Positions 22,484 to 29,774 of a DNA stretch of 63,764 nt are shown one piece after another. Location of the stretch: positions 1-63,764 of the forward strand of contig JAFGFW010000095.1 in assembly GCA_016930875.1 (NCBI GenBank), given 5' to 3'. A program made the position numbers and the translations under genes. Every line of letters begins with the position of its first letter. Positions within the stretch are counted from its first letter, which is position 1. This DNA is from Deltaproteobacteria bacterium. Its GTDB lineage: Bacteria > Desulfobacterota > Desulfobacteria > Desulfobacterales > C00003060. The notes below the pieces were generated by a model, which made no database searches, had not been told where the DNA came from, and was given only the letters and a program-made list of their open reading frames with translations.

Positions 22484-24280
22484 TCACTCGGTGTCCCGCT
22501 TAAGGACGGCAAGGAAGGCAGACTGGGGGATCATGACGGAGCCGACCATCTTCATCCGCCGTTTCCCCTTTTTCTGTTTTTCAAGGAGCTTTCTCTTCCG
22601 CGTAATATCTCCACCGTAACACTTGGCTGTCACATCCTTGCGATAAGCCGAGATAGTCTCCCGCGCAATGATCTTTGCACCGATTGCACCCTGGATGGCG
22701 ATCCTGAACATCTGTCTCGGGATCTCCTTTTTCAGCTTTTCGCATGCATACCTCGCCCGGTCGTAAGCCCCGTCTCGATAGACCAGTTGGGAGAGGGCAT
22801 CCACTTTTTCGCCGTTGATAAGGATGTCTAGTTTGACAAGATCGCTGTCACGGTAGTCAATGAGTTCGTAATCAAAGGAACCATAGCCCTGAGTGACGGT
22901 CTTGAGCCTGTCGTAAAAATCGTAGATTACCTCAGCCAGCGGGAGCTCGCATGTCAGCTCAATCCTTTTGCTGCCCATGTATTGATGCTTTGCATTGACG
23001 CCCCGGCGCTCAAGGCAGAGCTTTATCACCACGCCAAGATATCTATCGGGCGTCATAATGGCTGCCCTGATATAAGGCTCTTGCGTCTTAGCGATCTTGG
23101 CAGGATCGGGATAAAGAGCAGGGTTGTCGACAACCTCTGTTGCCCCGTCGGTCATGATGAAAATATACTTTACCGAAGGCGACGTTATGATAAGAGAAAG
23201 GTCAAATTCACGCTCCAAACGTTCCTGCACTATTTCCAGATGCAGCAGCCCAAGGAAACCACACCGGAATCCAAAACCCAGGGCTGCCGAGGTGTCCTTC
23301 TCGTACACGAGGGAGGCATCATTTAGCTTCAACTTATCCACGGCCATTGCCAGGTCTTCGTATCCGTCAGATGCCACGGGATAGATAGAAGAAAAAACCA
23401 CGGGCTTGATTTCCCGGAAACCCGGCAACGGCGCTGCACAGGGACAATTATCATGCGTGACGGTATCCCCACATCTGGTGTCGCTCACGGTCTTGACCCC
23501 AGCAATAATGTAACCCACCCCCCCGGCTGAGAGCATGTCCTTTCGAACCCTGTCAATCTGAAAGACCCCAACCTCTTCCACCCGGTATGTGGCATTATTG
23601 GACATAAAGCGTATGGCGTCCCCAGGCCTTACAGTGCCTTCAAAGATCCGGCAGTGGATAATCGTACCCCGGTAGGGATCATAGTGAGAGTCAAATATAA
23701 GGGCCTGCAAAGGGCTGTCCGGATCTCCCGCGGGTGCGGGGAGCCTTTTAACAATCGCTTCTAGGACATCGTCAACCCCGATCCCTTCTTTGGCCGAAGC
23801 GAGTATTGCCCCTGCCGAGTCCAGTCCAAGATCGTCTTCGATCTGCTGTCTAACCCAATCCACGTCAGCGGCCGGAAGATCGATCTTGTTGATCACCGGA
23901 ATAATCTCAAGATCATGGTCCATGGCCATATAAAGGTTCGCCACCGTTTGGGCCTCCACCCCCTGGCTCGCATCCACCAGGATGAGGACCCCTTCACAGG
24001 ATGCAAGGGACCTGGAAACCTCGTAGGTGAAATCCACGTGACCGGGTGTATCGATAAGGTTCAAGGTGTAAGTGTGGCCATCTTCAGCAGTGTAAGGCAG
24101 GGAGACGGCCTGGCTTTTGATCGTAATACCCCGCTCCCTCTCAATGTCCATTGTATCAAGGATCTGCTCTTTGAAATCTCGGTCCGAGATGATGCCGGTC
24201 GCCTGGATGAGACGGTCCGAAAGGGTCGATTTGCCGTGGTTTATGTGAGCAATGATGCTGAAATTTCGGATGCGTTTCAC
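22484..24280 (-). CDS. lepA: Elongation factor 4 (LepA)
   Basis: A 598-residue ribosome-associated GTPase with the expected EF-G-like domains and LepA-specific C-terminal domain ending in Lys-rich and Lys-Arg-Asp segments. The G1 loop reads Ala-His-Ile-Asn-His-Gly-Lys-Ser, so Asn14 replaces the nearly invariant Asp (codon AAC). G3 DTPGHVDF and G4 NKIDLP are normal. It starts at GTG overlapping the iorB stop by four bases, so translation is probably coupled to iorB, an unusual operon partner. Confidence 0.96.
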
Positions 24281-24861
24281 GATGTCCCAAAACCCATGCC
24301 AAAGGCCCGCAAATTTGCCTCCACAAACTTCTCCTTTGTCTTGGTGCGGATAGTCTCTTCAAAGGCTTCTCTGGCAACCGGCAAGACTCCGCTGCTGGCC
24401 AGAGCGCCAATCATCACCACGTTGGCTGACAGCGCAGACCCGGCTTGCTGCGCCAAGGTCTGTGCATTTAACGTAATCAGTTTCTTCACGCGGCTCCGGA
24501 CAAAGGCAAAGAGCTTCTCAACATCAGGGTAAGCGCCTTTCCCAATAGCCACACTGAAAGGGGTCACCCGTACGCTATTAGAAATGACCACGGAGTCGGC
24601 CGAACATCTCCGCAAAGCCCGATAAGTCTCCACCGGTTCAAATCCGAGAAGAACATTTGCCTCGCCGTCCGAAATGATCGGGCTTTTGATATCGCCGATC
24701 ATCACGGTCGATTCTACTACTCCGCCCCGCTGGGCCATACCATGGACCTCGCTGGCCAGGACATTATGACCCGCGTAAATTGCAGCTTCGGCCATAACCT
24801 TGGTAGCCAGAAGAGTTCCCTGCCCGCCAACGCCCGTGAAACATATACGATAATTGTCCAT
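24277..24861 (-). CDS. iorB: Indolepyruvate ferredoxin oxidoreductase, beta subunit
   Basis: A 194-residue subunit from the ATG at 24861, which follows AAGGGAGAG; the frame stays open upstream but without a better ribosome site. It has the POR-gamma-like fold with Gly-Val-Gly-Gly-Gln-Gly-Thr and [11 protein letters not shown]. With IorA it oxidatively decarboxylates aryl pyruvates from aromatic amino acids to aryl-CoA, reducing ferredoxin. A strong hairpin (24892-24934) lies between iorA and iorB and may tune their ratio. Confidence 0.93.
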
Positions 24862-24891
24862 TCGATCTCTCCCTTTTACGAAACCTTCCAT

Positions 24892-24934
24892 TTAATTAGT
24901 GTCCATCCATAATTCGTGGATGGACACTAATTAA
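24892..24934. repeat. Perfect 18-bp hairpin between iorA and iorB
   Basis: TTAATTAGTGTCCATCCA at 24892-24909 pairs exactly with 24917-24934 across a 7-base loop. It is not followed by a T run on the minus strand, so it is not a standard terminator. An mRNA-stability hairpin or the footprint of a small mobile element fits better. Confidence 0.7.
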
Positions 24935-24996
24935 ACCAATTCAACTAATCAAACGGTGTTTCTCAGGCATCAACGTCGCAACACCTGATCACTGCC

Positions 24997-26874
24997 CTAA
25001 ATCTTTTTTGGCCTGATCTTCTTGCAAAACTGGATACATACCCCGCAACCGATACAAAGCTGTTGGTCAATGATCATGGTTGTCTTGGCATCAGGAGCCG
25101 GATTCTTGTAAAGGGCGGGACACCCGAAAGTGTCAATGCATTCCGTGCACTCCGTATTGCACTCAGGACCTACCACGAACGCCCGTTTTGATTTCTTGCC
25201 AAGGACCCGCCTCTCGTATAGAGGACACGGGGCCTTGGCTATAATGACGGAAAGCTGGTTTGACTCCAGGGCCTCCTGGATCGCCTTCTTGGTCTTGGAC
25301 AGGTTGTTCGGATTGACTACTGCCACCTGCTCAACGCCACAGGCCCTGACAATGGCCTCAATGGAAATAGAGGGCTTGTCCCATCCGGGCAGCGTGATAT
25401 CCGCGCCAGGATGAGGTTGGTGGCCGGTCATGGCTGTTGTGCCATTGTCGAGGATGACAAGAATGAAGTTGTGTTGGTTGTGCACGGCATTGATCAGCCC
25501 TGTGATACCCGAGTGAAAAAACGTTGAATCGCCGATAAACGCAATCACCTTCTTGCCTGTTACCCTGGAGATGCCGGCCGCTGAAGTGACACTGGACCCC
25601 ATGCAAATAAGAAAGTCCGCTGTCTGCAAGGGGGGCAGAATCCCCAGGGTGTAACACCCGATATCTGTGGGAAAGATGACTTCGGCCTTGGTCTCTTTCA
25701 GCACGCTGTTGACTGCATAATAGGCTGCCCGATGGGGACAACCCGCACACAGGTTTGGAGGCCGCATAGGAACCTGAATGGGCTCCGGGTTCTTCTCTAC
25801 GTCGACGGGTTCTGGCAGGGTATAGTCAATGCCGAAAAACCGCGCTATGACCTCACGCACCATGCCGGGGTTGTATTCATATAGACGTGAAAAGAGATCC
25901 GCCCTTTTTCCGGCAATAGGTGTGACAAGACCGTCGGTCTGGGCTGTAACCCTAAGACTATCCTCTAACAGAGGCTCCAGTTCCTCCACAACGAGGATCT
26001 TTTCCACCGATTTGATAAAGTCTAGTGCAAGCTTTTCAGGAAATGGGTATGTGAAACCGAGCTTCAGCACCCTGACCTTGTCCTCAATCCCAAGATCCTT
26101 GATGGCATCAGCCACGTAGTTATAGGCCATTCCGCTTGTGGCAATGCCCCAGGAGCCTTCGCCGGTCACTGTATTAAAAGTCGATTGGCAGGCCATGTCC
26201 CGAGCCTTTTCCGCCTGATCAAGAAGCACCTTGTGGCGGACCCTGGCATTTGCCGGTACAGTGACAAATCGAGCACTATTCTTCTCAAAAGCACCTTTGG
26301 TCTTCGGGGGCCTCAGTTGGGCCGTTGTGACAATGCCGCGATAATGGCTCAACCGTGTGGTGGTCCGAAGCAGCACTGGGAGCTCAAGGGCTTCTGAAAT
26401 TTCAAAGGCTGCCTTGGTTATCTCTTTGGCCTCTTGGGCGGATGCGGGTTCCAGCATCGGCAGGCTGGACAATCTGCCGTAGATCCGACTATCCTGCTCG
26501 TTCTGGCTTGAAAACATCGACGGGTCGTCGGCCGTAACGATAACCATGCCTCCCCGCACGCCGACATAGGCCAATGTCATCAATGGATCGGCAGCCACAT
26601 TAAGGCCCACGTGTTTCATACTGCACATTGTCCGCACGCCAGACACAGCAGCACCTGCAGCCGTCTCCAGGGCCACCTTTTCATTGGTAGAATACTCAAA
26701 GTAAAGCTCTGATTCGGAAGCTATGCGAAAAAAGTTGTCTCCTATCTCAGATGACGGTGTGCCCGGATAGGTCGTGGCAAAGCTCAGGCCAGCCTCAAGA
26801 GCGCCTCTAACAATGGCCTCGTTTCCCAGAAGGAGAAGTTTCTTGCCTGTCTCTTCAGTCAACAGGGGATGCAT
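24997..26874 (-). CDS. iorA: Indolepyruvate ferredoxin oxidoreductase, alpha subunit
   Basis: A 625-residue subunit with an N-terminal pyrimidine-binding half (TYPGTPSSEIGD), a thiamine-diphosphate domain with Gly-Asp-Ser-Thr-Phe-Phe-His-Ser and the following Asn, and two C-terminal iron-sulfur clusters (Cys-Asn-Thr-Glu-Cys-Thr-Glu-Cys and Cys-Ile-Gly-Cys-Gly-Val-Cys). It ferments or activates aromatic amino-acid-derived 2-oxo acids in anaerobes. GGAGGG precedes the ATG. It heads iorA-iorB-lepA. Confidence 0.95.
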   Translation of the reverse strand: MHPLLTEETGKKLLLLGNEAIVRGALEAGLSFATTYPGTPSSEIGDNFFRIASESELYFEYSTNEKVALETAAGAAVSGVRTMCSMKHVGLNVAADPLMTLAYVGVRGGMVIVTADDPSMFSSQNEQDSRIYGRLSSLPMLEPASAQEAKEITKAAFEISEALELPVLLRTTTRLSHYRGIVTTAQLRPPKTKGAFEKNSARFVTVPANARVRHKVLLDQAEKARDMACQSTFNTVTGEGSWGIATSGMAYNYVADAIKDLGIEDKVRVLKLGFTYPFPEKLALDFIKSVEKILVVEELEPLLEDSLRVTAQTDGLVTPIAGKRADLFSRLYEYNPGMVREVIARFFGIDYTLPEPVDVEKNPEPIQVPMRPPNLCAGCPHRAAYYAVNSVLKETKAEVIFPTDIGCYTLGILPPLQTADFLICMGSSVTSAAGISRVTGKKVIAFIGDSTFFHSGITGLINAVHNQHNFILVILDNGTTAMTGHQPHPGADITLPGWDKPSISIEAIVRACGVEQVAVVNPNNLSKTKKAIQEALESNQLSVIIAKAPCPLYERRVLGKKSKRAFVVGPECNTECTECIDTFGCPALYKNPAPDAKTTMIIDQQLCIGCGVCIQFCKKIRPKKI

Positions 26875-27362: not shown

Positions 27363-28187
27363 CTACGTGAATCTTGATCCGGTAGCCCTTCTCAGGTCAG
27401 AATAGTCTATAGCTTCTCCCAGATAGGCATCAATGACATCCTGGTTGTCCTTGATGGCATGAGGGTGGCCCTCCGCTATCTTCTGGCCGTAATTAATAAC
27501 CACGATCTCGTCAGATATGTTCATGACAAGATTCATGTCATGTTCTACGAGCAACACGGTGATGCCCTGATCCCGGATGGCGCAGATTCGTTCTGCCAGA
27601 TACTCCGTTTCACGATCGTTAAGGCCTCCTGCTGGCTCATCCAGGAGCAGCAGTTGGGGGTCGGTTGCCAGAGCCCTTCCAATCTCTAGGAGCTTCTGGT
27701 CGCCCAGCGGAAGGTTGTCTGCCTTCATGTTTTTTTTCTCAAGCAGCCCTGCGAATTCGAGGCGCTCCAGGGCAGCTTGCCTGATCTTCTCTTCCTCCTG
27801 TCGCATTCTCTTGAGGCGAAAGCCAGCAGCAAAAAACTCTGATCGAGTCCTCACATGACGTCCTACCATCACATTTTCAAGCACCGTCATCTCGCCAAAA
27901 AGCTCCACGGTTTGAAATGTACTCGAAATACCTTGATCTGCGATCTGATACGGATTCAGACCGTTTATGGGCCGCCCCTTCAACCGGACCTCGCCCCTTG
28001 TGGGATCAAGAAGACCGGTAATCATCTTAAACAGCGTGGTCTTTCCAGCGCCGTTTGGACCAATGACAGACTTGATCAACCCTGAATCCACGGCAAAGGA
28101 AAGAGAGTTGATGGCCAAGAGGCCGCCGAATTCTTTGCATAGCCCATCAATTTCCAATAAGGCTTTATTATCTTTCGTTAAACGCAT
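27363..28187 (-). CDS. livG: Branched-chain amino acid ABC transporter ATPase (LivG-type)
   Basis: A 274-residue cytoplasmic ATPase from the ATG at 28187 (GTG at 28196 also possible). Walker A is GPNGAGKTT, Walker B LLLLDEPAGG, and a His switch (Val-Glu-His-Asp) is present. The signature is Leu-Pro-Leu-Gly-Asp-Gln rather than the usual Leu-Ser-x-Gly-x-Gln. The C-terminal extension ending in Val-Ile-Asp-Ala-Tyr-Leu-Gly is typical of LivG. No permease gene adjoins it; livK-livH-livM lie 19 kb away on the other strand without livG or livF. Confidence 0.9.
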   Translation of the reverse strand: MRLTKDNKALLEIDGLCKEFGGLLAINSLSFAVDSGLIKSVIGPNGAGKTTLFKMITGLLDPTRGEVRLKGRPINGLNPYQIADQGISSTFQTVELFGEMTVLENVMVGRHVRTRSEFFAAGFRLKRMRQEEEKIRQAALERLEFAGLLEKKNMKADNLPLGDQKLLEIGRALATDPQLLLLDEPAGGLNDRETEYLAERICAIRDQGITVLLVEHDMNLVMNISDEIVVINYGQKIAEGHPHAIKDNQDVIDAYLGEAIDYSDLRRATGSRFT

Positions 28188-28400
28188 AGTTATCACTTAA
28201 ACGTGCAACTTCTCAACAACCACTGGGACGATAGATGAACCCCGGGATCTTGTCAACCTGAGCCTCAATGCGCAATTACGTGCATTCAATGAAAAAGTTT
28301 TTCTAATATCAGATTGGCAGGATACTTGCACGAATACACAGCCGATAGACCTTGATGACAACATTTCGTTCACTTTTTCTCAAGAACAAGGAGCACGAAA
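28188..28400. other. Divergent promoter region, livG / receiver fusion
   Basis: A 213-base spacer between the divergent livG and the receiver-binding-protein gene. AAGGAG precedes the plus-strand start. I saw no clear operator. Confidence 0.3.
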
Positions 28401-29774
28401 ATGTCACTTGATAAGCAAATGACAATCCTGGTTGTAGATGATTCCGGAACCATGCGGGCGATGTTCAAACAGATGCTAAACAAACTTGGTTTTGCTAACA
28501 TCATTTCCGCTGTGGATGGCGTTGATGGAATCGAGAAGCTTCAAGAGCATAATATAAATCTGATAATCAGCGACTGGAATATGCCGAACAAGGACGGGTT
28601 GGACTTTCTGAAATGGGTCCGTCATGATGAGAAATGTGAGAATATCCCTTTCATACTGGCAACAGCACAGGGCGATAAGTCTCAACAAGAGCTTGGCAAA
28701 AAGGAGGGGGCAAATAACCATATTGCAAAGCCCTTTGACACTGAAGAACTCAAGGCAAAAATCGATGAGACTCTTGGCCTAAAAGACGGGGTCGCGGAAG
28801 AAAAGCGCGAGCCAAGGTTGATTCACGGGAAGGTTCAAATGAGAGTGGGACATATTCAGATTACCGATCACCTTGCACTCGGAGTTCTAAGGCATCAAAT
28901 ACAAATAGGAGAGGTTGGTCCCAAATATTTTGACCTGGAGACTCTATGCATGCCCGGCTGGAACCCGATTCAAGAATCTCTGGAAAAGGGAAACGTTGAT
29001 GCCGCTTTTATTCTGGCCCCTATTGCAATGGATCTCTTTGGATTTCGTGCACCCATAAAACTAGTACTGCTGGCTCACAAAAACGGCAGCATTTTTGTGC
29101 GTTCAAACAAGGATGAAATCAATAATTATGAATCACTGAAAGACTTCTTCAAATATAAGGTAATAGACATCCCCCATAAGATGTCTGTCCATAATATGTT
29201 GGCACACAAATTCTTGACCGACTTGGGTCTGAAGCCGGGAGTCCCTGGAAAGAAGCCCATTAATGTCCGTTTTGAAGTCGTGCCGCCAGTAAAGATGGCA
29301 GGCATAATAAAGAAGAACGAAGAAGTCGCAGGCTTTATTGTGGCCGAACCGATCGGTTCGAATGCTATTGCAAAGGGAATTGCAGAGTTTCAGTTCCTCT
29401 CTGCATCGCTCTGGAAAAACCATCCCTGCTGCGTCGTTGCCATGCGGGATGAGTTTATTTCAGAATATCCCGATGCCGTGTATGAGTTTACGTCTTTGCT
29501 TGTTCAGGCTGGGAAGTTTATCGAGCAAAACAAAAAAAAGGCTGCTGAAATTGCTGTTGCTTTCTTGGATCCGAAAAAAGAATTGGGCTTGACCACATCC
29601 GTTCTGGATAAGGTCCTTAACGAACCTCAAGGGATAACAATGAATGACCTGTACCCGGTGCTTGAGGACCTTGACAAGATTCAACGATATATGCACGATC
29701 AAATGGACATAGGCGTTTTGATTGACGTCGAAAGGTTCGTTGATCTAAAATTTGCCGATGCAGCGTGCAAATAG
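28401..29774 (+). CDS. CheY-like receiver fused to an NMT1/SsuA-type solute-binding domain
   Basis: A 457-residue protein. Residues 6-127 form a complete receiver: Asp13-Asp14, phospho-acceptor Asp58 (Ile-Ser-Asp-Trp-Asn-Met-Pro), Thr88 and Lys110. Residues 146-450 resemble the periplasmic-binding-protein-like domain of nitrate/sulfonate/THI5 proteins (Gly-His-Ile-Gln-Ile-Thr-Asp-His-Leu start and an Asp-Ala-Ala-Phe segment). There is no signal peptide, so the binding domain should be cytoplasmic. I infer a phosphorylation-controlled ligand sensor. It has its own ribosome site and no adjacent histidine kinase. Confidence 0.85.
   Translation: MSLDKQMTILVVDDSGTMRAMFKQMLNKLGFANIISAVDGVDGIEKLQEHNINLIISDWNMPNKDGLDFLKWVRHDEKCENIPFILATAQGDKSQQELGKKEGANNHIAKPFDTEELKAKIDETLGLKDGVAEEKREPRLIHGKVQMRVGHIQITDHLALGVLRHQIQIGEVGPKYFDLETLCMPGWNPIQESLEKGNVDAAFILAPIAMDLFGFRAPIKLVLLAHKNGSIFVRSNKDEINNYESLKDFFKYKVIDIPHKMSVHNMLAHKFLTDLGLKPGVPGKKPINVRFEVVPPVKMAGIIKKNEEVAGFIVAEPIGSNAIAKGIAEFQFLSASLWKNHPCCVVAMRDEFISEYPDAVYEFTSLLVQAGKFIEQNKKKAAEIAVAFLDPKKELGLTTSVLDKVLNEPQGITMNDLYPVLEDLDKIQRYMHDQMDIGVLIDVERFVDLKFADAACK

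Follow-up and report, generated by a model that had tools for sequence, protein, structure and literature searches.

The window, by which we mean the whole analysed stretch of 63,764 nucleotides, holds a solitary gene with livG divergent on one side and usp convergent on the other, encoding a protein in which an N-terminal CheY-like receiver (REC) is fused to a solute-binding domain (SBP) (Table 1). The livG-type ATPase gene is a lone one with the indolepyruvate:ferredoxin oxidoreductase genes iorAB beyond it; L031 and L032, the loci of a 95% and a 72% identical gene, respectively, have this arrangement too. The predicted sigma-54 site of the window gene is a consensus match with one mismatch to TTGGCACGNNNNTTGCW, and a similar site is also present 5' of the genes in L031 and L032; in the contigs of this genome that were examined, the background of such sites is ~0.02 per kb on each strand. 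A solo SBP gene of the same genome carries a sigma-54-like site at -245 (L055:12566-12582, minus strand), found at -151 in the ortholog L133.

Table 1 Features of the REC-SBP locus and its flanks, in window positions.
Feature	Position	Strand	Basis or remark
REC-SBP fusion gene, ATG ORF, 457 aa	28401..29774	+	ORF call, Pfam, purifying selection, AlphaFold
Ribosome binding site AAGGAG, 7 nt 5' of ATG	28388..28393	+	direct sequence reading
Sigma-54-type promoter-like site TTGGCAGGATACTTGCA (GG-N10-GC), predicted	28314..28330	+	71-87 nt 5' of start codon
CheY-like receiver, residues 9-121, phosphoacceptor D58	28425..28763	+	PF00072, E 7e-25; CheY fold
Cytoplasmic solute-binding domain, residues 144-457	28830..29771	+	PF13379, E 2e-27; fold match
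Conserved cleft loops, predicted	28851..29432	+	near-invariance in REC-SBP domains; residues in text
livG-type ATPase gene	27363..28196	-	
iorAB genes	24277..26874	-	

The Response_reg and NMT1_2 profiles both scored far above their Pfam cut-offs, so that the earlier note's reading of the product as a receiver joined to a binding-protein domain holds. Structure prediction in AlphaFold2 (mean pLDDT 91.7, pTM 0.88), followed by Foldseek, returned a CheY fold and a NitT/TauT-type binding-protein fold for the two parts. The predicted receiver superimposes on CheY with a TM of 0.95 and an rmsd of 1.0, and its top NCBIfam match is CheY (5.7e-29, under the cut-off of that model). The phosphorylation site, claimed to be intact, is indeed complete, as D13, D14, D58, T88 and K110 are all present in the doubly wound fold expected of PF00072. 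Four of these residues (D14, D58, T88 and K110) are invariant across 24 REC-bearing homologues, and position 13 is D or E. Pfam detected no ANTAR or DNA-binding output domain in the protein.

The absence of a signal peptide was likewise confirmed. The N-terminus is the receiver itself, no membrane segment was found and no 19-residue stretch exceeds a hydropathy of 1.52 (reached at residue 201), unlike the exported relatives, which carry clear twin-arginine (RR) leaders. Export through a missed upstream leader was rejected, because the open frame upstream of the ATG is only about 14 codons long and the receiver begins directly. Neither an export signal nor an enzyme or effector fold turned up, either of which would have spoken against a cytoplasmic binding protein. 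The product does not qualify as the binding subunit of an ABC transporter, given that the leader is absent and the nearest ABC gene is the divergent livG, of another transporter class.

The NMT1_2 match spans residues 144-385, and the binding fold continues to the C-terminus in the AlphaFold model. This region corresponds to both the PF13379 profile and the type-II binding-protein fold, with 3un6, a NitT/TauT-type binding protein, as the top Foldseek match (TM 0.90 on target); next come CmpC through its cytoplasmic regulatory domain, NrtA, NrtC, TauA and SsuA, and NrtA matches in sequence as well. The proposed NMT1/SsuA-type identity therefore stands, a binding-protein fold and no enzyme fold having been found. 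Residues H151, ITDH 154-157, W187, H226, GS 229-230, P258, S262, H264, AEP 315-317, W338 and HPCC 341-344 show little or no variation across 53-54 REC-SBP domains, and most of them recur in exported relatives. Their assignment to the cleft follows from the type-II fold and the predicted secondary structure. This invariant cleft supports the earlier suggestion that the protein binds a small molecule, with binding itself a prediction from sequence. The signature common to the exported relatives comprises T155, W187, H226, G229, S230, P258, S262, H264, E316, P317, C343 and C344. In alignments to the window SBP, W187 and H264 match a Trp and a His of NrtA, CC343-344 stands where NrtA has EK, and both NrtA and CmpC are without the CC pair and H226.

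The structure title of 3un6, a NitT-type binding protein from S. aureus, names zinc, and a 3un6-like transporter adjoins clade B CO dehydrogenases, for which nickel import has been proposed (Inoue et al., PMC6344411). Two CO dehydrogenase loci with an exported relative were seen here (L153 and L167), Mrp-type antiporter genes adjoin the exported relatives L165 and L166, and a weak SaoX match, below cut-off, was also obtained. A further exported NMT1_2 protein is flanked by a double-CheW gene and an MCP gene (L177:224-3966), a set that probably forms a binding-protein-assisted chemoreceptor. The attempt to read a single ligand from transporter context failed, since the CO dehydrogenase, Mrp-type antiporter, weak SaoX and MCP (L177) contexts disagree, so that a metal, an oxyanion and bicarbonate are all possible. 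Given the zinc of 3un6, the CO dehydrogenase loci, the antiporter neighbours and the common cleft signature, the foremost ligand candidates are transition metals and small oxyanions.

REC-SBP proteins are patchily spread over at least 20 sampled Desulfobacterota genomes, and outside this phylum they were found in single MAGs labelled Melioribacteraceae, Anaerolineae (Chloroflexota) and Thiotrichales. Homologues of the window protein occur in 10/60 near relatives (E up to 1e-20, solo and exported SBPs counted in) and in 23/395 Desulfobacterota genomes (E up to 1e-40); the samples overlap, and L032/L114 and L043/L136 look like identical contigs. An assembly error or a chance fusion was ruled out, because the same fusion recurs in many genomes and habitats. 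A defence role was also considered and discarded, the sole PADLOC match being the receiver part of a different protein. Searches of the open-access literature yielded no description of a REC-SBP fusion.

Most sampled REC-SBP domains (36/54) are followed by a C-terminal tail, which is nearly always CheW. SpoIIE (L044) and HATPase_c_2 with STAS (L073, L074 and L127) are the other tails, L086 places a second REC-SBP with CheW after the first, and some proteins, including the window type, have no tail. The binding domain is thus more likely to serve as input than as output, as the REC-SBP pair is a module standing before several different outputs. CheA adjoins three cases among L073, L074, L127 and L044, and we read these four fusions as putative partner-switching modules with binding-protein input. 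Two further cytoplasmic members are encoded in the same genome: a 655-residue REC-NMT1_2-CheW paralog on contig C71 (57% identical; CheW with Pfam E 7.6e-33) and a solo cytoplasmic binding protein of 312 residues on contig C30 (48% identical). A complete che operon ends with the C71 paralog, which follows cheR, cheA, a CheY-like gene, cheB, cheD and an MCP gene.

Elsewhere, CheA is a direct neighbour in L124, L125, L127 and L128, whose arrangements are unrelated, as are CheR in L123 and an MCP in L142. Sigma-28-type boxes TAAAGTTG-N11-GCCGATAA, with one mismatch to the flagellar consensus, precede the CheW-type genes in L037 and L046 by ~140-170 nt; the boxes (FliA type) are conserved and the spacers differ. 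The interpretation of the window protein as a two-component output or phosphorelay component in the earlier note was therefore too general: the C-terminal CheW domains, che operons and CheA neighbours of the relatives point to a chemosensory family that it had missed. Che genes adjoin only a minority of CheW-type members, and the window clade adjoins cheA at none of the loci examined.

In a rapid maximum-likelihood tree built from 73 binding domains, the REC-SBP proteins form a clade (SH-aLRT 100) apart from the exported and the solo cytoplasmic proteins, which are themselves separated. Nine tail-less proteins of the window type make up a single clade (support 100) among CheW-bearing lineages, and L071 is a tail-less REC-SBP protein outside it. 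CheW was likely lost once in the window clade, a single loss being likely and not proven because the binding-domain tree has long branches and open forks. The distance matrices of REC and SBP agree (r 0.88, reached in 0 of 5000 permutations), so that the two domains have diverged as a pair. The residues fixed in the window clade and absent elsewhere include five in the receiver, D13, F22, Q96, H107 and D113. H107 aligns with CheY Tyr106, which suggests a changed output face, and these receiver changes together may reflect another kinase or target.

NitT-type ABC genes accompany seven family loci (L034, L117, L036, L038, L039, L120 and L121), some with a Tat-exported NMT1_2 protein. Within the window clade, the genes of L034 and L117 are in line with an ABC transporter that has such a Tat-exported protein, and a solo cytoplasmic SBP gene lies 57-77 nt upstream in L115 and L116. 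Beside the tail-less REC-SBP genes of these four loci, a conserved family starting with M(R/K)ITDPxIIKTGE was observed (L034:3978-4703, L115:10717-11502, L116:7390-7986 and L117:10731-11579), with no Pfam match and no member found in the genome of the window. A conserved protein of ~343 residues, also with no Pfam match, ends the ABC operon beside REC-SBP-CheW in L036:12821-13852, L038:12844-13869 and L039:12843-13898. A DUF169 gene and an aminotransferase with an N-terminal DsrC-like stretch lie beside REC-SBP-CheW in two distant MAGs (L041:9928-12215 and L042:1964-4277), a possible link to sulfur.

Building on the directly observed domains, fold, conservation, family architectures, operon contexts and tree, we favour, with a probability of roughly 55%, the reading of the window protein as a cytoplasmic sensor of a solute, joined to a CheY-type switch and derived from an array adaptor of the CheV/CheWS kind. 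A NitT/NrtA-type binding domain would have been recruited from an ABC transporter, kept inside the cell and made to close on a small solute; closure of the cleft would be coupled to the receiver, which would take phosphate from a CheA-type kinase. The CheW-ending form may, like CheV and CheWS, be an adaptor of the array that informs the chemosensory kinase about a solute in the cytoplasm. The CheW-less window form probably functions off the array as a response regulator or phosphate acceptor gated by its ligand; CheA, the motor and the solo cytoplasmic binding protein are candidate partners, and the output of the system would be behavioural. Counting against a chemosensory role, the window gene has no CheW and stands solitary between livG and usp. 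A broader version, which we put forward more tentatively, would make REC-SBP a general intracellular solute-sensing module plugged into chemosensory arrays through CheW, into PP2C-type phosphatases through SpoIIE or into partner switching through HATPase-STAS; it would let the cell compare inside with outside levels of one solute where it lies beside the corresponding transporter, with the window form as a separate, freely diffusing branch.

The transporter contexts would also suit a one-chain counterpart of NasS/NasT, in which the receiver, under the control of a binding domain that detects a transported solute, would act on gene expression or the transporter and not on chemotaxis, phosphorylation perhaps being minor. 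NasS, a nitrate sensor of the cytoplasm that resembles NrtA, frees the receiver-ANTAR protein NasT upon ligand binding (PMC3795266), and the arrangements in L034 and L117 and in L115 and L116 as well as the sigma-54 site, suggestive of metabolic regulation, are in line with such a regulator. We nevertheless consider it rather unlikely, as the window protein has no ANTAR or DNA-binding output domain, its relatives end in CheW, SpoIIE or HATPase-STAS and not in nucleic-acid-binding domains, and the phosphorylation residues are invariant. CheV receivers act as a phosphate sink or in adaptation in other bacteria. A similar role for the window protein in one of the two che systems of its genome, whose CheA proteins are encoded on contigs C71 and C86, with the binding domain tuning the drain of phosphate from CheA, would fit a CheY-like receiver without an output domain, yet it appears less probable still, given that the window clade is not co-localised with cheA and that the invariant cleft suggests a central role for ligand sensing. 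That the window type is a decaying remnant of REC-SBP-CheW, as its nesting among CheW-bearing members might suggest, is very improbable: nine members diverging to ~59% identity all retain the two domains and stop at the same position, and pN is low relative to pS in REC and SBP alike (0.16 against 0.88 versus the 72% identical homologue in L032), which rules out decay.

As its closest relatives carry chemotaxis or other signalling parts, the window protein appears to belong to an undescribed family of intracellular nutrient or metal sensors connected to bacterial behaviour. Chemotaxis normally senses extracellular solutes, and soluble cytoplasmic ligand sensors linked to the array are few, CheWS being one. 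If the reading is true, the internal nutrient or metal status would gain a direct route to behaviour through a transporter-type domain and a phosphorylation switch, a question that the REC-SBP family makes approachable with small soluble proteins.

The nearest precedents for the putative mechanism are CheWS and NasS, and the closest cytoplasmic ones by structure match are the regulatory domains of CmpC and NrtC. In Muok et al. (PMC10653840), who list 30 unstudied CheW architectures, CheWS of Treponema denticola is described as a cytoplasmic, CheR-like sensor domain that binds SAM and is anchored to the array through CheW. This composition of CheW and a cytoplasmic ligand domain is shared by the C71 paralog and most homologues and not by the window protein, which has no CheW; CheWS differs from the family in its CheR-like SAM binder and in having no receiver. 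CheV resembles the family in its phosphorylatable CheY-like receiver, paired in the family with CheW and che operons, but it has an N-terminal CheW followed by REC and no ligand domain, whereas the relatives are REC-SBP-CheW and the window protein is CheW-less. NasS, like the window protein, is NrtA-like, has no signal peptide and senses inside the cell with a receiver partner (PMC3795266), but it is a separate chain whose partner NasT carries ANTAR, whereas the window receiver lies in the same chain and has none. The C-terminal regulatory domains of NrtC and CmpC are also of the NMT1_2 type and on the cytoplasmic side, but are fused to an ABC ATPase and regulate transport. 3un6 and the binding proteins beside clade B CO dehydrogenases (PMC6344411) share H226, H264, E316 and CC343-344 with the window SBP, from which they differ as exported transporter subunits of ~19% (3un6) to 36% identity.
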